Origin: Bacteroidota bacterium
GTDB taxonomy: Bacteria; Bacteroidota; Bacteroidia; Flavobacteriales; Flavobacteriaceae
Length of the DNA stretch: 64,000 nt
NCBI GenBank assembly: GCA_027620655.1
Contig: JAQCDS010000003.1
Span: forward strand, 74,449-138,448
Direction: 5' to 3'
Shown here: positions 20,706 through 60,960 of the stretch, piece after piece
Numbering within the stretch: the stretch's first letter is position 1
Layout: the number at the start of each line of letters is the position of its first letter
The notes under the pieces: generated by a model
Databases searched by the model: none
Told to the model about the DNA's origin: nothing
Seen by the model: only the letters and a program-made list of their open reading frames with translations
Made by a program: the position numbers and the translations under genes

Positions 20706-21455
20706 ATGAAAAATATAATTATTATTTCCTTTTGGTTGATTGGAACTCTTGGAAATTCTCAAGACAATTTGCAGTTTGATCAAGCTAACTCGCTTTATAA
20801 CAACGGAAAGTATGATGCTGCAATTTTAGCTTATGAAAATATACTTGAAAATAATTTGCACTCTAGTGCGCTGTATTTCAATATGGCTAATTGTTATTAT
20901 AAATTAAATAAAATTGCACCTAGTATTTATTATTATGAGAAAGCATTAAAGCTATCCCCAAACGACAAAGACATTCAAAACAATTTGGGTTTTGCACAAC
21001 AGATGACTATCGATCAATTTAATGCAATTCCTGAGTTAGGGGCGTCTAAATTTTATAAAAAAACAGCACAAATATTTAGTCTTAACGGCTGGGCAATTTT
21101 ATGTGTCTTTCTAATGTGTGTTTTTGTTGGGTTTTTTATCGCATATTTCCTTTCTTATAACACAAAAACAAAAAGACTCTTTTTTGTAATGGGGGTATTA
21201 TCTATCCTAATTCTCATTATATCTTTTATTTTACTCCACAAAAAAATAGACTTAAACAATGAGCGTTTTGGTATCATTTACCCACAAGAAATTAATGTAA
21301 AAACAGAGCCGAATCTTAGAAGTGAAACTGCTTTTGTTTTACACGAAGGAACAAAAGTACAAATCATAGAATCATACAAAAATAACTGGTTAAAAATTAA
21401 ACTCATAGACGGAAATATTGGATGGGTTTCAAAAATTGCCCTCCAAGAATTCTAA
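20706..21455 (+). CDS. batE: BatE, TPR and SH3-like protein
   Basis: A 249-residue protein with signal peptide (to about residue 19, TLGNSQ). Two TPR repeats follow (FDQANSLYNNGKYDAAILAY, ALYFNMANCYYKLNKIAPSI), then two transmembrane helices (about 127-147 and 156-176). A C-terminal bacterial SH3-like domain starts near residue 195 (NVKTEPNLRSETAFVLHEG). This completes the MoxR/Bat operon. It begins 1 base after the batD stop. Confidence 0.92.
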   Translation: MKNIIIISFWLIGTLGNSQDNLQFDQANSLYNNGKYDAAILAYENILENNLHSSALYFNMANCYYKLNKIAPSIYYYEKALKLSPNDKDIQNNLGFAQQMTIDQFNAIPELGASKFYKKTAQIFSLNGWAILCVFLMCVFVGFFIAYFLSYNTKTKRLFFVMGVLSILILIISFILLHKKIDLNNERFGIIYPQEINVKTEPNLRSETAFVLHEGTKVQIIESYKNNWLKIKLIDGNIGWVSKIALQEF

Positions 21456-21524: not shown

Positions 21525-23378
21525 ATGAAAAACACAAACAACCTATTCTCAAACATTAAGGGTGATGCCTTTGGCGGTATCACCGCAGGAATCGTAGCTT
21601 TACCACTAGCGCTAGCCTTTGGCGTATCCTCTGGTCTTGGCCCAAGCGCCGGACTCTATGGTGCTATTTTCATAAGTTTTTTTGCTGCACTTTTTGGTGG
21701 AACAAACACACAAATCTCTGGTCCAACCGCGCCAATGACTGCAGTAAGTATGGTTATTATTGCTGGTATTGTTGCTGCCAATGATGGCAACGTAGAGAAA
21801 GCTTTACCATCCATTTTGATGGTGTTTTTATTGGCAAGAATAATGCAAATTGGACTGGGTTTTTTAGGACTTGGAAAATATATTAAGTACATTCCATACC
21901 CTGTTGTTTCTGGGTTTATGACAGCAATTGGTGTTATTATTCTTTTGACTCAAATTTTACCCTCTTTGGGATACAACCCAAAAGATGATTTAGAATATGT
22001 AAATCAGTTTAAACCACAAGCAGAAGAGATTATTCTTGAAAATATTTTAAAAGACGAAGCCGGTGAAGGGATTCTTGTTTTAGAGGATTTTAAAGAAACC
22101 ATAAAAAGAGCAAATGAAATTTCTGAAGCAGATATTCTTAGGGAATCCAAAACTCTTGCCGCTAAATAAGCCTCTGGAACTATTGGTGCATTAAAAGTCA
22201 TGCCAAGAGCACTTAGAAATATCAACTGGCTTGAACTTTTTTTGGCACTAGGAACTATTATAATCATATACGGATTTAAAAGAATTACTAAAGCAGTACC
22301 TAGCACCTTAGTTGCGCTTATTGTAATGTCTGGCGGAGCTATCGCATTAGGTTTGGATTATAAGCCTATAGAAAAAATCCCCGAAGGACTCCCTATTCCT
22401 CAATTAAATATGTTTTCTAATTTTAGTTTAAACAGTATTAGCCCCTATGTGTTTACAGCGCTCGCACTATCTCTTCTTGGGGCTATTGATTCGTTGTTAA
22501 CAAGTGTTGTGGCCGACAATATGACAAAAACCAAACATAATCCTAACAAAGAACTTGTGGGACAAGGTATTGGAAACAGTATTGCTGCAGTGTTTGGTGG
22601 AATTCCAGGTGCTGGTGCTACAATTCGAACTGTTGTTAACATTAATGCCGGTGGAAAAACAAGACTTTCTGGAATGATTGCTGGAGTTTTGTTACTTTTT
22701 ATTCTTTTGGCACTAGGACCTATCGCTTCTAAAATTCCTGCTGCGGTGCTTTCTGGCATATTGATTACCGTTGGAATTGGAGTTATGGATTATAAAGGAC
22801 TAAGGGCAATCCCTATTTTACCAAAAGACATTACACTTGGGCCCATAAAATTAAGCTCTGAAGTTTTAATCATGTTTATTGTTTTGATTTTATCAACGTT
22901 TTGGGATTTAATTTTTGCAGTAGGAATTGGACTACTCATTTCGTGTTTAATGTTTATGAAGCTCATTGGCGATCTTACCGCTGAACACTCAGAACTTAAT
23001 ACTCTGAAGGAAGAAGCATGGCTAGATGAAATAGATTTTCCAAAAAACTTAAAAGGAGAGGTTTTTATAAAACAAATCAAAGGGCCACTATTTTTTGGAT
23101 CAACTTCTGAATTTCAACAATTGTATAAGCAAATTCCCGAAGGAGCAAAAACAGTTGTGATTCGACTTAGTAGAATGCCATATATGGACCAATCTGGTTT
23201 GTATGTGATGGAAGACACACTTCAAGATTTAAAAGCTAAAGGCGTAGAGGTAGTTTTTGTAGGATTGCTAAAGCAACCGAGATACATGATGGAACGTATT
23301 GATATTATTCCTGATTTTATTGCAGAGGAACGCATATATCAATCATTCAAAGCCTATTTAAGTAGCCTATCTAAGTAA
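21525..23378 (+). pseudogene. SulP-family anion transporter interrupted by an in-frame TAA
   Basis: The reading frame from ATG at 21525 to the stop at 23378 is continuous except for TAA at 22167-22169. The first piece (214 residues) holds the SulP amino-terminal signature region (GITAGIVALPLALAFGVSSG) and about five membrane segments. The second piece, if restarted at ATG 22200 in the same frame, has 392 residues with the remaining membrane segments and a C-terminal STAS domain (about residues 290-385 of that piece). The stop falls in a soluble charged insertion, and the bases after it (encoding ASGTIGALKV) still look conserved. Possible explanations are a nonsense mutation, a sequencing error, readthrough, or two co-folding polypeptides. 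Family members carry sulfate, bicarbonate or other anions. Confidence 0.85.
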
Positions 23379-25400: not shown

Positions 25401-26402
25401 TTAATCTAAATTTTCAGTTAATTTCTTTAACGCCTGTTTGGGGTTCTTATTGTTATATAGTACCTCATATACCATATCAATAATTGGAGTTCTTGCTAAA
25501 TTTTTTGATTCTTGATTAATTTCATAGGCGCTTTTTGTTGCATAATACCCTTCAGCAATCATATTCATTTCCATTTGTGCGGACTTCACTGTGTAGCCCT
25601 TACCAATCATATTACCAAACATTCTGTTTCGGGAAAAGGTTGAATACCCTGTGACTAACAAATCGCCTAAATAGACCGTTTCGTTAATTTTGCGTTTCAT
25701 CTTATATACTTTCTTTATGAAGCGCTTCATTTCACGAATAGCGTTGCTCATCAAAACACTTTGAAAATTATCGCCATACCCCAATCCATGAGCAATTCCT
25801 GCTGCTATAGCATAAATATTTTTCAACATGGCTGCATACTCTGCTCCAACAACATCATCATGAATTTTTGTGTTTATATAATGACTAGAAATTTGTTCTG
25901 CTATGGCTTTTGCTGTATCCTTATTTGTACAGGCAATGGTTAAATACGAAAGTCGCTCTAATGCCACTTCTTCGGCATGACATGGCCCCCCCAATACTGC
26001 AACTTGATCGAAAGGGACGCCTAGGTGTTGATGAAAATGCTCTCCAACCAAAAGCCCTGTTTCTGGAACGATTCCTTTTACAGCAGATAAAATTATTTTT
26101 TCTGAAATATTGACATTTAACAATTTGAGTTGCTCATAAATAAATGCGGATGGAATCGCAAAGACTAAAACATCTGCTGAACGTGCTACTTTATTTATAT
26201 CATCACTCAATATGAGACGGTTGACATCAAATTCAATCGAAGTTAAATATGAAGGGTTGTGTTGCTCTTTTTTTATGTAATCAATGGTTTGCGATTTGCG
26301 CACATACCAGCCCACAGAGTCTGTTTTCTCGCACAACATTTTTACAATTGCTGTTGCCCAACTGCCGTTTCCAAAGACTGCATATTTTAGTTTTGATGCC
26401 AT
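25401..26402 (-). CDS. gpsA: glycerol-3-phosphate dehydrogenase (NAD(P)+)
   Basis: It reduces dihydroxyacetone phosphate to sn-glycerol 3-phosphate, the backbone for phospholipids. The 333-residue protein has the N-terminal nucleotide-binding loop VFGNGSWATAIVKML (about residues 8-22). The conserved LSAVKGI, VLGGPCHAEEVA and AEYAAMLKNIYAIAAGIAHGLGYGDN segments carry the catalytic Lys. A -7 promoter element stands 19 bases before its start. It converges on pheS. Confidence 0.96.
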   Translation of the reverse strand: MASKLKYAVFGNGSWATAIVKMLCEKTDSVGWYVRKSQTIDYIKKEQHNPSYLTSIEFDVNRLILSDDINKVARSADVLVFAIPSAFIYEQLKLLNVNISEKIILSAVKGIVPETGLLVGEHFHQHLGVPFDQVAVLGGPCHAEEVALERLSYLTIACTNKDTAKAIAEQISSHYINTKIHDDVVGAEYAAMLKNIYAIAAGIAHGLGYGDNFQSVLMSNAIREMKRFIKKVYKMKRKINETVYLGDLLVTGYSTFSRNRMFGNMIGKGYTVKSAQMEMNMIAEGYYATKSAYEINQESKNLARTPIIDMVYEVLYNNKNPKQALKKLTENLD

Positions 26403-50120: not shown

Positions 50121-50978
50121 TTAGAATATAGAGTTAAATGAATGGGTTTTATCCAGCCTTACACCTTTTTCGGTATGTTTGACTGTTATGATTTCATTTC
50201 TGGCATCATGCTCCAAAAATAAATAATAATTTTGACTTGCAGCGAGGTTAAGAAAAACCTCTTTTTCTTGTAGAGTCAGTAAAGGTCGGGTGTCGTACCC
50301 CATAATAAAAGACAATGAAACATGCCCTGCCGTTGGTAATAAATCAGCCATAAAACACAAGGTTTTACCTTTGTATTTTATCATTGGAATCATTTGCTTT
50401 TCGGTGTGTCCGTCAGCAAAAAATACATCAAAGTCCAGAGGAGAGTTTTTTAGTATATTTTCTTTTGTACAGTTCAAGTATTTTAGGTTTCCAGATTGTT
50501 CAATAGGCTCAATATTTTCCATTAAAAAAGATGCTCTCTCACGTTTGTTTGGTGTTTTTGCCCAAGACCAATGTTTTTCATTACTCCAGTAGGTTGCATT
50601 TTTGAAAGCGAGTTGATATCCTGTTTTATTTGCATTCCATTCAACGCCACCCCCACAATGATCAAAATGTAAATGTGTTAGGAAAACATCTGTGACATCG
50701 TCTTTATGAAAGCCATATTTTGCTAGAGCCTGCTCCACACCTTGATCTCCCCATCGAAAATAATAACTGAAAAATTTATCGGTCTGTTTGTTGCCCATTC
50801 CCGTATCAATTAAGATTAAGCGATCACCGTTTTCAATAAGTAAACATCGAGCAGCAATATCAATCATGTTGTTTTGGTCTGCAGGGTTTGTTTTAGACCA
50901 AATAGATTTTGGGACAACTCCAAACATGGCGCCTCCGTCCAGTTTAAAGTTGCCAACATTTAATGGGTATAGCTTCAT
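50121..50978 (-). CDS. MBL-fold metallo-hydrolase
   Basis: The 285-residue metallo-beta-lactamase-fold protein has the zinc motif THLHFDHCGGGV (about residues 104-115) and further ligands in FADGHTEKQM, CFMADLLPTAGH and LEHDARNE. No signal peptide is seen, so it is probably cytoplasmic. Substrates in this family vary widely (lactones, thioesters, phosphodiesters) and cannot be assigned. It overlaps the SulP gene by 4 bases and precedes the subtilase. Confidence 0.92.
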   Translation of the reverse strand: MKLYPLNVGNFKLDGGAMFGVVPKSIWSKTNPADQNNMIDIAARCLLIENGDRLILIDTGMGNKQTDKFFSYYFRWGDQGVEQALAKYGFHKDDVTDVFLTHLHFDHCGGGVEWNANKTGYQLAFKNATYWSNEKHWSWAKTPNKRERASFLMENIEPIEQSGNLKYLNCTKENILKNSPLDFDVFFADGHTEKQMIPMIKYKGKTLCFMADLLPTAGHVSLSFIMGYDTRPLLTLQEKEVFLNLAASQNYYLFLEHDARNEIITVKHTEKGVRLDKTHSFNSIF

Positions 50979-53167
50979 TTTTGTAATATTTGAGTTTCTA
51001 GACGCATTCCAAAATCCAAAAGTTGTTTTATTTCTTTGATGCTTGCTACTCGTTCTTTATTGAAAATCAGTAACCCGCTTCCGTTAGACTCAACATGGTA
51101 GTAGCTGTTGCTTTCAAAAAATCTAACAAGTTTTTTGTCAAAAAAGTTTTGGATTTCTTTCTTCTTTTCTCCGCTTAAATAAAAGCGATTTGAGAAGTCT
51201 CGTTGGTTTGGTATGCTAATATCCTTTTGTCCAGCAAGAGCGTAAAAACGCTCCAACAACCCCTCTTTGGTTAATGTAAAACTAGGAATTTCTTTAGATA
51301 AATTAATATGTAACATTGTTGAACGAACCACTTCTTTTGCAATGGCCTCACCCTCGGAAAAAGTAATATCAAAAACAGATAAATTGTTTTGGCCTCGTGA
51401 CAGTCTGTTATAGATGTATTCAATTTTTTTAGTTTTAAAAAATAAGAAATTTTCGAGCACCCCATTTTTTTTAAGTCTTTCAGAATTGAAATTAAGGTCA
51501 AAATTTAAGCCTACTTCTTCTAAATCTTTTTGTCGTTTTGTAGCACCACTTTTTATTAAGTTTGATATTGGCAACAACTTCCTAAGCGCAAAAGGATGCC
51601 CCGATTTTGCTCCAAGCAGATCCATTCCTATAACTTCAATGTTGCCACCTTTTTTATAAAACAGTTCTTGATAATCATTAATATTTTCCATGACAGAATG
51701 GTCGACAAAGCCACACATAGAAAAGTCAATGACAACATCGTTCTGCTCTGGAATAACACTCAATTTGTCCTTAAGTTTGTTGAAATTTAAAAAACTACAA
51801 AAATGTTTGACACTGATAAAATAATTTCCATTTTCCTCTTTATACATTAGTACATTCGGCTTTACAATGTTTTTAATAAATAGCCCCAAACTGTTGTTTA
51901 CGATAATATGAATAATAAAAGTTGAAATAAGCCCAGCAAGAATTCCAGAAATTAGTCCAATTTTTAGGGTTACTAGCAATGTTGATAAGAAAATAATTAG
52001 CTGCTCTTTACCTATTAAAAAAACACGTTTTATCATTTCCGGAGCGGCAAGCTTATACCCTGTATAAACTAAAATAGCCATCAATGCAGAAAGAGGTATC
52101 CGAGTTAATTCGCTGTTGAATAGAAGGATAAAAATCATTAAAAAAAGCGCGTGAAATAAATTCCCTAGTCTATTAGTCCCTCCGTTTGTAATATTCACGG
52201 AACTTGGCGCTATAACAGTTACAACATTTAGACCGCCAAATAAACCACTTATTGTTGTTGCTAGCCCTAGCGCTTTAATGTCTTTATTTACATTTGAACG
52301 TCTTTTTTTAGGATCAAGTTTATCTATAGCTTTTATGCTTAATAATGATTCTATACTAGCAATTAGTGTGAGCGCCACAACACTACCCCAAAACTCTATG
52401 TTGTAGATTGACCCAAAGTTTGGCAACGGCAAGTCATTTACCGCTTCAGACAGGCTTGGTATGTTTGGGATCATGTATTTTTCTGAAATAGGGTTAGAAA
52501 TTTTCAATACAAATTCACAATAATAACTAAATCCAACAGAGCATATTACAATCCACATTGGTGCTGGAATTAGTTGTAGATACTTGTTGCGTATTTTAGA
52601 ATAGAATACCATGACGATTAAACTTAGAACACCTGCAATAGCCGCATTAATCAATCCAGGATCCTGATATTCAAATACTTTCATAATGGTTTTTGGGATT
52701 GCAATTAAGTAGTCAATTGTATTGTCTCTACTAATTTTATTACCCAGCATGATATGAAATTGTTTTCCAAGGATTATAAGTCCAATGGCTGCCAACACTC
52801 CTTGAATTGCCGAAGACGGAAAATAATCAGCAAGTTTTCCAAGCCTCAAAAACCCTAAAATTAGAAGCAGTATGCCAGAGCATATAATTGCGGCATAAGT
52901 GGTTGTAAGCCCAAGGGTTGACACCGCGACCAAAACCACCCCTACCAAACCTTTACCAGGGCCAGAAATGGTCACATAGCTCCCTCCAAAAATAGCAACA
53001 ATAACACCTCCCACAATTGAAGTAATTACACCTGCAATTGGCGGGGCATCACACGCCATAGCAAGACCCAAACTCAAAGGTAAAGCAATAAGACTTACAA
53101 CAAGGCCAGAGAATATGTTTCTTGGAATTGCAGCTATTTTTGTTGCTATGCTGTTTTTTTGTCTCAT
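50975..53167 (-). CDS. SulP-family anion transporter with STAS and extra C-terminal domain
   Basis: The 730-residue protein has ten or more membrane helices in residues 15-435 with SulP-typical segments (SGLVVSLIALPLSLGLAMA, GSYVTISGPGKGLVGVV, GLFGGLNVVTVIAPSSVN). A STAS domain covers about 440-550 (VVIDFSMCGFVDHSVMENI). Beyond it lie about 170 residues not usual for SulP proteins, ending near VASIKEIKQLLDFGMRLET. The substrate may be bicarbonate or sulfate. It overlaps the universal stress protein gene by 4 bases and the MBL gene by 4, so the three are translationally coupled. Confidence 0.93.
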   Translation of the reverse strand: MRQKNSIATKIAAIPRNIFSGLVVSLIALPLSLGLAMACDAPPIAGVITSIVGGVIVAIFGGSYVTISGPGKGLVGVVLVAVSTLGLTTTYAAIICSGILLLILGFLRLGKLADYFPSSAIQGVLAAIGLIILGKQFHIMLGNKISRDNTIDYLIAIPKTIMKVFEYQDPGLINAAIAGVLSLIVMVFYSKIRNKYLQLIPAPMWIVICSVGFSYYCEFVLKISNPISEKYMIPNIPSLSEAVNDLPLPNFGSIYNIEFWGSVVALTLIASIESLLSIKAIDKLDPKKRRSNVNKDIKALGLATTISGLFGGLNVVTVIAPSSVNITNGGTNRLGNLFHALFLMIFILLFNSELTRIPLSALMAILVYTGYKLAAPEMIKRVFLIGKEQLIIFLSTLLVTLKIGLISGILAGLISTFIIHIIVNNSLGLFIKNIVKPNVLMYKEENGNYFISVKHFCSFLNFNKLKDKLSVIPEQNDVVIDFSMCGFVDHSVMENINDYQELFYKKGGNIEVIGMDLLGAKSGHPFALRKLLPISNLIKSGATKRQKDLEEVGLNFDLNFNSERLKKNGVLENFLFFKTKKIEYIYNRLSRGQNNLSVFDITFSEGEAIAKEVVRSTMLHINLSKEIPSFTLTKEGLLERFYALAGQKDISIPNQRDFSNRFYLSGEKKKEIQNFFDKKLVRFFESNSYYHVESNGSGLLIFNKERVASIKEIKQLLDFGMRLETQILQK

Positions 53168-54012
53168 CTAATTATAAGTACATCAGTTGGTAGTTCGCCT
53201 AAAATATGTTCTATGTCATGAGGAAACAAACGATCCCAAAAAGAAGTTTTTATTGGCGCATTCATCACCAGTAAATCTGCCCGAACCACTTGAGCATAGT
53301 GTCCTATAGAATACCCTCTTTTACCAAAAATTGGTTGCGACTTTACAGAAATACCATTAGAGAATTCTTCCGGAACTTCTTCTAATAATTTTTTGACACG
53401 CATATTTTCTCTAATCATCAGGCGCTCTCTTATAATAGTAGATTGACGCAACGTTTTATCATCATCAACCTTGATATTGAATTCATCTTGACCCACTTCT
53501 TCAACAACAGTAACCCTAGAAGCGTTTAGTTTTTTACCGACATAAAACGCATAATTAATTGTTTCTTTAGTTTTTGGATCTTTTAACCCATTTACAACGA
53601 TATGTTTACATGGAACTCTATCAACAGAGGGGTTGATGAGCAAAAGAATAGAGCAATCAGCCTTACGAGTAATTTCTCTTGCAATAGACCCTAGATAATA
53701 CTTAAAAAATGTTTCTCTTTTAAGCGCACCAAGAATCATTAAATCAATATCATAGTTTTTGATCGCTGAAAGAATTATATCAACAGGAGCGCCTGGAAGA
53801 AAAAGAACAGAATATTTTAGTTTTCTTTCTGAAAAGCTAGCAAGGTGGTCATCAATTGTAGCTTTTTTTTCTTCATTTTCTTCTCCAACATGAACAAGAA
53901 CAAGCTCGCTATCCATAACAAGTGCAAGCCTTGAGGCCTCAAAAATATTGGCCTTTAGGTTTGGTGAAAAAGCGACACCAATGCCTATTTTTTTAAATTT
54001 TGTAGTACTCAA
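53164..54012 (-). CDS. tandem universal stress protein
   Basis: The 282-residue protein is two universal stress protein (UspA) domains in series: residues 4-130 (KIGIGVAFSPN, DLMILGALKRETFFKYYLGSIA) and 135-282 (HIVVNGLKDPKTKETINYA, ADLLVMNAPIKTSFWDRLF). The first half keeps a G-x-x-G-S-type segment (YLGSIAREI); the second is degenerate, so nucleotide binding may be limited. The start is TTG at 54012, needed to include the first strand; no ATG is upstream in frame. It is coupled to SulP downstream. Confidence 0.9.
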   Translation of the reverse strand: MSTTKFKKIGIGVAFSPNLKANIFEASRLALVMDSELVLVHVGEENEEKKATIDDHLASFSERKLKYSVLFLPGAPVDIILSAIKNYDIDLMILGALKRETFFKYYLGSIAREITRKADCSILLLINPSVDRVPCKHIVVNGLKDPKTKETINYAFYVGKKLNASRVTVVEEVGQDEFNIKVDDDKTLRQSTIIRERLMIRENMRVKKLLEEVPEEFSNGISVKSQPIFGKRGYSIGHYAQVVRADLLVMNAPIKTSFWDRLFPHDIEHILGELPTDVLIIR

Positions 54013-57588: not shown

Positions 57589-60500
57589 TTGAATCATTTT
57601 TCCAACATAAAGACCAAATTAGAGCAATTTATTAAGCGCTATTATATGAGTGCTTTTTTAAAGGGGGCTTTACTGTTTTTTGGAATTGGGTTGCTGTATG
57701 CGCTTTTTTGGATTTCAATCGAATATTTTTTTTGGATTTCATCATTAGGAAGAACGATTGTTTTTTGGTCATTAGTTTTTTTCGAAATGTTTTTATTCTA
57801 CAAATTACTATGTGTCCCGTTATTAAAGTTTTTGAAAATCCAATCTGGAATAAGTGATCAAGAAGCGGCAAAAATTATTGGTGATTTTTTTCCTGAAATA
57901 AGCGATAAATTATTGAACGTTATACAACTGAATAGTCAACCAACAACAGAGCTTATTGTTGCAAGTATTCAACAAAAAGCAAAAGAATTTGGTAGTGTTT
58001 CATTTAAAAAAGCGATACAATTTAAAGACAATTTAAAGTATTTGAAATACACTGTTTTACCCCTAATGATTATTGGGGTTGTTTACGCTTCTGGCGGTCA
58101 GTCAAACCTAAAGCAAAGTCTAAATCGTGTTGTTGACTATAAAACAACCTATACCCCTCCCGCTCCTTTTCAATTTGTTGTAACAAATAACGTTTTAGAA
58201 ACTGTTGAAAATCAATCTTTTGTTTTGGATATTAGAGTTGAAGGTAATGTGGTACCAGAACAGGTCAAAATTTCTTTTGAAAATCAAACTTATTTTTTAA
58301 AAAGAATAAATAATCAGCGGTTTCAATTTAAATTTCAAGCCCCAAAGAAAGACATACAGTTTCAAGTTTTTTCAGGGAATGTGATTTCAAATTTATTTGA
58401 ATTAAAAGTTTTGAGTGCTCCAAAAATTTTGAATTCAACCTTAATAGTCGATTACCCCATATATACAAAATTAAAAGACAAGATTGTTTCTAGCTTCGGA
58501 AATATCTCCATTCCAGAAGGCACCAAATTAACATGGAAATTTTTAACTAAATCTACCGATACTGTCACTTTTGTCAATCAAAATTCTGTTTTTTATTTTA
58601 ATAAAGACGCTAATGAATTTACATTATCAAAACAGGTTTTTACCGATTTGATGTATGATATTAATACAAATAATGATCAACTAAAAAATTTTGAAACGCT
58701 TTCCTATGAAGCACGAATTATAAAAGACCGCCCGCCACTAATTGATGTTCAACAACGTGTTGCAAACTCAATTGAGGAAGAGCTTTATTTTTATGGACAG
58801 ATCAGTGATGATTATGGCATATCATCATTACAAGTACACTATTATCCTATAGACAATGCGAATCCAAAAACCATAAAAACGATAAGTTTTAATAAAACTT
58901 TTGATTTTACCTATCAATTTCCTGTGGGGTTAGACCTTTTACCCGATACTTCATATGAATTGTTTTTTGAGGTTATAGACAATGACCCTTTTCCTAGTCC
59001 AAACAAAGCAAGATCCAAGGTTTTTACATATTTATCGAAAAGCGAAAATGCTCTTAAAGAGGAACAACTCAACGACCAAAAAGAATTGGTTGATGATTTG
59101 GAAAACACGTTTAATACATATGAAAAGCAACAGGAATTAGTTGATGATTTTACAAAACAACAGCTTCAAAAAGAGCGTCTAAATTATAATGATCAGGAAA
59201 AAACACAAGACATCATAAAGCGTCAAAAGAATCAGGACGATATGATCAAACGCTTTAATGAACAAATGAAAAAAACATTGGAACAGTTTCCAGACGAAAT
59301 GCCTGATCCTTTTAAAAAGAATTTGTCTGAACGTTTAGACGAGCAAAATAAACGCTTAGAAGAGAATGAAAAAACACTAAAAGAGCTAGAAGACTTAGCA
59401 AAAAAAATGAAGCAAGAAGAGCTCTTAGATAAATTACAAAAACTAGTCCAGCAAAGTAAGAATAGGCAGAAAAATTTAGAGCAAATGCTTGAACTTACCA
59501 AGCGCTATTATGCTTCCAAAAAGGCAGAGCAACTTAAAAGTAAATTAGAAGACCTTAGTCAAGAGCAAACTGATCAAGCTGAAAAACCTAAAAACAATAA
59601 AAGTGAAGAGCAGTCTAAACTAAACCAAAGGTTCAATAATATTTCAAAAGAATTGGATGAGCTTAGAAAGCAAAACAATTCTTTAAGTAAACCAATTTCA
59701 ATCCCTGATACAAAACAAGAAGAATTATCGATACAGACCGATCAAAACGAAGCTATGGAGAACTTAGAAGAGGTTGAAAAATCCAAATCGATAGAACCCC
59801 CCAAAAACTCATTTCAAAAGGCCAGCAAGGCCCAAAAGAAAGCAGCGCAAAAAATGAAACAACTAGCTGCTCAATTGGCTCAAAGTATGTCGGGCGGCTC
59901 ATCGATGCAGCTATCAGAAGATATCGAAATGCTAAGGCGGATACTTGACAATCTTCTTTATTTTTCTTTTGAACAGGAAGATCTTATAAGGCAGCCCGCT
60001 TCCGTTAAAACTATAAAAACTCAAAAGAACCTAAGGACTCATTTTGAACATATTGATGACAGTTTGTTTGTTGTTTCTTTGCGTCAGCCAATGATTTCAC
60101 AACAAATTAATGACGAAATATCGGACGTATATTACAATATTGACAAAACCCTAAGCTCTCTTTCAGAAAGTAGAGATTATGAAGCCAAATCGGCACAGCA
60201 GTATACAGTGACTTCAACTAATAATCTAGCAAATTTGCTAAGTGATGTGTTAAATAATCTTGAAATGCAAATGCAACCTAATCCGGGACAAGGACAAGGC
60301 GATATGCAATTGCCAGATATTATTATGAGTCAAGAAGACTTACAAAAGCAGGCAGAACAAATGATGAATGGAAAAAGGGGAGGTTCTGAAAAGTCTAATG
60401 AAAAAGGAGAGCAAGGGAGTTCAGAACAGTCAGGAGAAAATAGCAAGAACAAAAATTCTAGCTCCGGAGAATCAACAGGAAACAAACCCGATGGTTCATC

Positions 60501-60960
60501 ACCATCAGAGGGTCAATCAGAAACAGTTCAATATGGCGACCCAGAGGAGTCAAGCGAGGCGCTGTTTCAATTGTATAAACAGCAACAAGAATTAAGGCAA
60601 AACTTAGAAAATATATTAAAAAAAGAGGGTCTTTTAGGGGAGGGAAAATCTACTTTGGATGCTCTTGAGAAATTAGAGCAACTTATTGTAAATCAAGGTG
60701 TTACAAAGGAAACGTTAGCAAAAATGAAGGCCTTAAAATATGAATTTCTTAAGCTTGAAGACGCATTGCTCAAAAAAGGAATGTCTCCAAAAAGACAATC
60801 ATCTTCAAATAACAAAGAGTTTTCAAAGCCAAATACTATAACGGAAGATGATATAAAGCGACTTTTTGGAGCAGATGAAATTTTAAACAGAAAGGCATTA
60901 CCTTTGCGCCAAAACATGAAGAAAAAAGTTCAGGATTATTTCAATATAAAAAATGATTAA
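57589..60960 (+). CDS. DUF4175-type large coiled-coil membrane protein
   Basis: The 1123-residue protein has two membrane helices near the N-terminus (about residues 22-44 and 50-74), a third near 148-165, then beta-rich exported domains (about 170-480). A long region rich in Gln, Glu and Lys follows with strong coiled-coil character (about 485-760). A Gly/Ser/Asn/Glu-rich low-complexity stretch (about 920-980) and a helical end complete it. I recognise the start as typical of DUF4175 proteins of Bacteroidota, whose function is unknown. The start is TTG at 57589; the next ATG (57646) would remove conserved residues. ybeY overlaps its end by 8 bases. Confidence 0.8.
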   Translation: MNHFSNIKTKLEQFIKRYYMSAFLKGALLFFGIGLLYALFWISIEYFFWISSLGRTIVFWSLVFFEMFLFYKLLCVPLLKFLKIQSGISDQEAAKIIGDFFPEISDKLLNVIQLNSQPTTELIVASIQQKAKEFGSVSFKKAIQFKDNLKYLKYTVLPLMIIGVVYASGGQSNLKQSLNRVVDYKTTYTPPAPFQFVVTNNVLETVENQSFVLDIRVEGNVVPEQVKISFENQTYFLKRINNQRFQFKFQAPKKDIQFQVFSGNVISNLFELKVLSAPKILNSTLIVDYPIYTKLKDKIVSSFGNISIPEGTKLTWKFLTKSTDTVTFVNQNSVFYFNKDANEFTLSKQVFTDLMYDINTNNDQLKNFETLSYEARIIKDRPPLIDVQQRVANSIEEELYFYGQISDDYGISSLQVHYYPIDNANPKTIKTISFNKTFDFTYQFPVGLDLLPDTSYELFFEVIDNDPFPSPNKARSKVFTYLSKSENALKEEQLNDQKELVDDLENTFNTYEKQQELVDDFTKQQLQKERLNYNDQEKTQDIIKRQKNQDDMIKRFNEQMKKTLEQFPDEMPDPFKKNLSERLDEQNKRLEENEKTLKELEDLAKKMKQEELLDKLQKLVQQSKNRQKNLEQMLELTKRYYASKKAEQLKSKLEDLSQEQTDQAEKPKNNKSEEQSKLNQRFNNISKELDELRKQNNSLSKPISIPDTKQEELSIQTDQNEAMENLEEVEKSKSIEPPKNSFQKASKAQKKAAQKMKQLAAQLAQSMSGGSSMQLSEDIEMLRRILDNLLYFSFEQEDLIRQPASVKTIKTQKNLRTHFEHIDDSLFVVSLRQPMISQQINDEISDVYYNIDKTLSSLSESRDYEAKSAQQYTVTSTNNLANLLSDVLNNLEMQMQPNPGQGQGDMQLPDIIMSQEDLQKQAEQMMNGKRGGSEKSNEKGEQGSSEQSGENSKNKNSSSGESTGNKPDGSSPSEGQSETVQYGDPEESSEALFQLYKQQQELRQNLENILKKEGLLGEGKSTLDALEKLEQLIVNQGVTKETLAKMKALKYEFLKLEDALLKKGMSPKRQSSSNNKEFSKPNTITEDDIKRLFGADEILNRKALPLRQNMKKKVQDYFNIKND

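Follow-up and report, generated by a model that had tools for sequence, protein, structure and literature searches.

A private in-frame TAA in a BicA-like SulP transporter gene of a flavobacterium, probably a very young nonsense allele

The window analysed here, a stretch of 64,000 nucleotides, is part of contig 8 of a flavobacterial draft genome of 1.9 Mb in 18 contigs, rated 99.76% complete. On its plus strand, positions 21525..23378 translate as a single frame of 618 codons, with one internal stop at codon 215 besides the terminal one. This internal stop, a TAA at 22167..22169, is not set in any long homopolymer; it closes a first ORF of 214 aa (21525..22169, plus strand), and the next in-frame ATG opens a second ORF of 392 aa (22200..23378, plus strand). 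Pfam family PF00916 (Sulfate_transp) covers both parts consecutively, with profile positions 2-138 in the first and 155-364 in the second (117.1 and 141.3 bits, cut-off 23.2), and the best relative among the matches listed is 91% identical in an alignment that spans 617 of 617 positions; the two ORFs are thus not chance neighbours. The second part also carries a STAS domain at 23055..23342 on the plus strand (PF01740, residues 286-381 of the second ORF, 52.8 bits against a cut-off of 22.6). Together with the comparison to BicA given below, these matches identify the interrupted gene as one for a SulP anion transporter of the BicA-like type, with a STAS domain. Such transporters are common in Flavobacteriaceae, and the putative substrate would be bicarbonate or a sulfate-type anion. 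A preliminary description had read the locus as a SulP gene split by a single in-frame TAA with both halves in one frame, and the ORFs, the translation and a whole-genome protein search, which reported the SulP match with "1 TAA" inside, all bear this out; it had also noticed conserved sequence after the stop, and residues 216-225 indeed agree with the majority of 97 intact homologues at 8 of 10 positions. In genome G008, L036, which is the nearest intact orthologue, has the same neighbours: BatD-like and TPR/SH3 genes upstream, and downstream a Colicin_V-family gene and a gene that we take to be pheS.

The solved structure closest in sequence to L036 is that of BicA, a cyanobacterial SulP/SLC26 bicarbonate transporter (6ki1, E 1.9e-81; a second structure is 6ki2), and 6ki1 also came first when the predicted fold of L036, the intact orthologue and not the broken gene, was compared with known structures (E 5.8e-18, TMt 0.86). 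This model reached a mean pLDDT of 69.2, against 46.1-60.7 for four others, and was built from an alignment of 30 of the 96 sequences with coordinates. In it, helices 90-114 and 125-148 are counted as TM4 and TM5, short helices lie within residues 149-234, and TM6 starts at about residue 235; the first ORF would accordingly encode TM1-TM5 plus the larger part of the TM5-TM6 loop, and the second TM6-TM14 and STAS. The gene resembles BicA in its transmembrane domain and STAS, but TM5 and TM6 are separated by about 65 additional residues, with the stop at their end (codons 151-215, 21975..22169 on the plus strand, the gap between the two stretches that align to 6ki1), and an arginine stands in place of a TM4 glycine. 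According to the part of PMC8298490 available to us, TM1-7 and TM8-14 of AtSULTR4;1 are related halves, the gate domain consists of TM5-7 and TM12-14, and the TM5-TM6 loop is named EL1. On the model, the stop is in an enlarged TM5-TM6 loop, within the first seven-helix half, and this loop should face outward; both the 6ki1 alignment and the L036 model thus place the stop between TM5 and TM6, and not between the membrane halves as had been described.

The comparison with close relatives that the preliminary description called for finds the stop absent from them and private to this genome. Across 149 genomes (our own included), 75 had a SulP match at E <= 1e-50, giving 79 rows among the matches listed, a few of which are partial or represent more distant SulP genes (33-50% identity); those of G030 and G057 are parts of a BicA-like gene on separate contigs. 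Among these rows, a stop lies inside the match in our own row and in none of the 78 others. A family survey of 397 genomes, 245 of them with a match at E <= 1e-100, gave the same picture, our own row being the only one with a stop among the matches listed. Merging identical sequences among 109 loci then left 97 distinct coding sequences, all intact and 613-646 residues long (one contains an N). The stop column holds a sense codon in all 97, with eight different residues and an acidic one in 79; it is, in other words, a variable, polar column in a frame that relatives keep intact. Within the genus, the BicA-like gene is intact in 9 of the 10 relatives (G001-G009) among the matches listed. A search of viral_contigs, a set from which records of the same or near genomes may be left out, gave no hit to the DNA pattern surrounding the stop.

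Selection on the gene was gauged against L036, over the whole gene (dN 0.048, dS 0.83) as well as in its first part (dN 0.027, dS 0.672) and second part (dN 0.059, dS 0.931). When changes were polarised strictly with two outgroups, 15 nonsynonymous changes fell on our own branch and 15 on that of the sister, with 25 and 23 synonymous ones; under a looser scheme with six outgroups, the nonsynonymous changes were 15 and 9, with 28 left unassigned, and the synonymous ones 32 and 33. The six-outgroup count leans toward relaxed selection; the stricter one shows no such lean. As our own branch and the sister have the same number of private amino-acid changes in the strict count, any loss of constraint should cover no more than roughly 2% of the branch: a Poisson estimate, under rough assumptions, puts the unconstrained share at 0.75% (median) and at 2.3% at the 95% level. 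The SulP gene thus appears to have been under strong constraint until the mutation, with no detectable relaxation in the strict count. If the stop kills the gene, the loss is very recent; an assembly error or continued function would leave the same pattern of constraint.

One private change deserves separate mention. Codon 105 (21837..21839, plus strand), in TM4, encodes Arg where all 97 intact homologues have Gly, as do BicA, SLC26Dg and prestin at the aligned position. A radical change (BLOSUM62 <= -2) at an otherwise invariant column occurs in 4 of 98 sequences, our own included, and the strict count gives two radical private changes in this gene for our own lineage and two for the sister. 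The private Arg at an otherwise invariant TM4 glycine would weakly favour real decay over an assembly error.

We also looked at the quality of the assembly through the other genes of the window. Over the 52 genes present in all three comparison genomes (18,457 codons), private nonsynonymous changes number 486 here and 441 in the sister, and radical ones 37 and 33. Among the 62 non-overlapping ORFs of G008, 56 match the window, 55 of them at an identity of at least 60% and 53 along 90% or more of their length. Besides SulP, three of these comparisons contain stops: two, at residue 15 of 541 and residue 48 of 434, belong to upstream extensions that are lacking in shorter G005 forms without a stop, and the third concerns an ORF antisense to another. 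In the comparison with the 55 G008 ORFs that share at least 60% identity, no other window gene therefore shows a genuine internal stop, and a genome-wide survey of three families found none in 62 matches (30, 20 and 12, some of them under the curated cut-off). These clean comparisons speak against gross assembly error; they have no bearing on one wrong base. A reading of TAA as a sense codon can be discarded, as neither the window comparison nor the three family surveys has any other genuine internal stop. Some window genes stand out in their private changes: among the 52 genes, private amino-acid change on this branch is fastest in the protein of about 1110 aa at 57589-60957 (65 here, 36 in the sister), and 11 private changes against 3 in the sister are found both in the TPR/SH3 gene immediately upstream of the broken one (20706-21452) and in a gene at 25404-26402, presumably glycerol-3-phosphate-dehydrogenase-like.

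The genome holds four SulP loci, the broken one included. The window itself contains a second SulP gene of 730 aa (50975-53167, minus strand), beside a Usp gene, which had been described as intact and as a possible source of redundancy. Intact it is, but redundancy is doubtful. This protein shares PF00916 with the broken gene, but differs in matching that profile once, in lacking any Pfam match to STAS and in having a Usp gene beside it. Among the matches listed, each of the 10 genus relatives has a long SulP related to it, at 66-80% identity in G009, G003 and G001 and 35-37% in the other seven; 9 of the 10 thus have both the BicA-like gene and a long SulP, again among the matches listed, which indicates that both genes are retained together. 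On these grounds we discarded a close paralogue as a source of redundancy, the 730-aa SulP being of a different kind and the two others distant among the matches listed; none of the three other loci is a close copy, and they would probably not stand in for the broken gene exactly. The SulP and Usp genes at 50975-54012 (minus strand) stand between a Lactamase_B gene and, on the opposite side, a gene that we assume to be lepA-like. At the same locus, G008 has a SulP about 34-35% identical to the 730-aa protein; in G005 the flanking genes adjoin each other and the long SulP is elsewhere. As far as these sequences go, the locus is variable within one genus. Among the matches listed in relatives, two others to the SulP family contain internal stops, G019:C22:186107-187591 and G113:C67:10703-12864, one with a single TAA and the other in two pieces with several stops.

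We consider that a BicA-like SulP orthologue has probably been inactivated very recently by a nonsense substitution, and put the probability of this reading at roughly 0.6. The main competitor is an error in the sequencing or consensus, in which case the gene would be intact in the organism and the TAA would be a wrong base. The stop is known from a single assembly, a 1.9-Mb draft in 18 contigs may well hold a few wrong bases, and the lack of relaxed constraint is what an intact gene would show. On the other hand, private changes are not in excess in this assembly (the 486 and 441 given above), no other genuine broken gene turned up in the window or in the three family surveys, and the TAA lies outside any long homopolymer. 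All in all, we regard such an error as rather unlikely.

A leaky stop, with readthrough of the TAA giving some full-length transporter at a lower level, would explain why constraint is seen on both sides of the codon, and the accessible part of PMC7918605 does argue that readthrough occurs at many bacterial in-frame stops, in genes whose dN/dS stays below 1. However, a recent mutation accounts for the constraint equally well, no relative compared conserves the stop, and the RNA fold around the TAA is ordinary (z 0.18), so that neither a conserved stop nor a recoding structure marks this private codon. Readthrough is, in our opinion, improbable.

Finally, the preliminary description had suggested that a split into two polypeptides might be tolerated. 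On such a reading, TM1-5 and TM6-14 with STAS would be made separately, by termination and restart at ATG 22200, and assemble into a transporter. A second in-frame ATG does lie 30 bases past the stop, and a break in a poorly conserved loop insertion that BicA lacks could make an interrupted chain tolerable. According to the part of PMC6847099 at hand, Bacteroidetes do without Shine-Dalgarno signals, and initiation in Flavobacterium johnsoniae is helped by A at -3 and -6; ATG 22200 has A at -6, a favoured position, but G, not A, at -3. With a start matrix built from 36 conserved window starts, medians were 0.70 at these starts and -3.78 at 196 internal ATGs; ATG 22200 scored -3.11, which 87 of the 196 internal ATGs match or exceed, and 3 of the 36 conserved starts score as low. 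There is thus no initiation signal at 22200 in this test. Neither the split nor the restart codon is conserved: among the matches listed from the 149 genomes, no such stop occurs in the 78 other rows, and Met occupies the restart position in 16 of the 97 relatives. The N-terminal tail of the second piece, with two positive and no negative charges, would moreover have to face outward. Among the ten titles listed of 389 papers, none concerned a split SulP gene. We consider a working split highly improbable.

What remains is a young nonsense allele of the ordinary sort, or else an artefact, and most likely no new kind of split gene. If the nonsense allele is real, a substitution would have created the TAA in an otherwise intact, conserved frame; ribosomes would stop at codon 215 and release a 214-residue piece with TM1-TM5. 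This piece would lack TM6-TM14, hence the TM10 part of the anion site, as well as STAS, so that a working transporter is not expected. In all probability the mutation is so young that it could be a polymorphism among strains, to be lost, reverted or followed by decay. Young or segregating nonsense alleles have been described in bacteria (PMC2916853 and PMC7918605, in the parts available to us), and they share with the present case a stop one substitution away from an intact frame and found in a single genome; the difference is that here we have a single assembly, for which a one-base consensus error stays a rival. The accessible part of PMC7918605 presents in-frame stops in constrained bacterial genes as widespread and short-lived at the polymorphism scale, which fits a young allele here. 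Should the stop be real, it would capture gene loss at its first step in a flavobacterium of 1.9 Mb, and would raise the question of whether that strain can do without this uptake of anions or bicarbonate.
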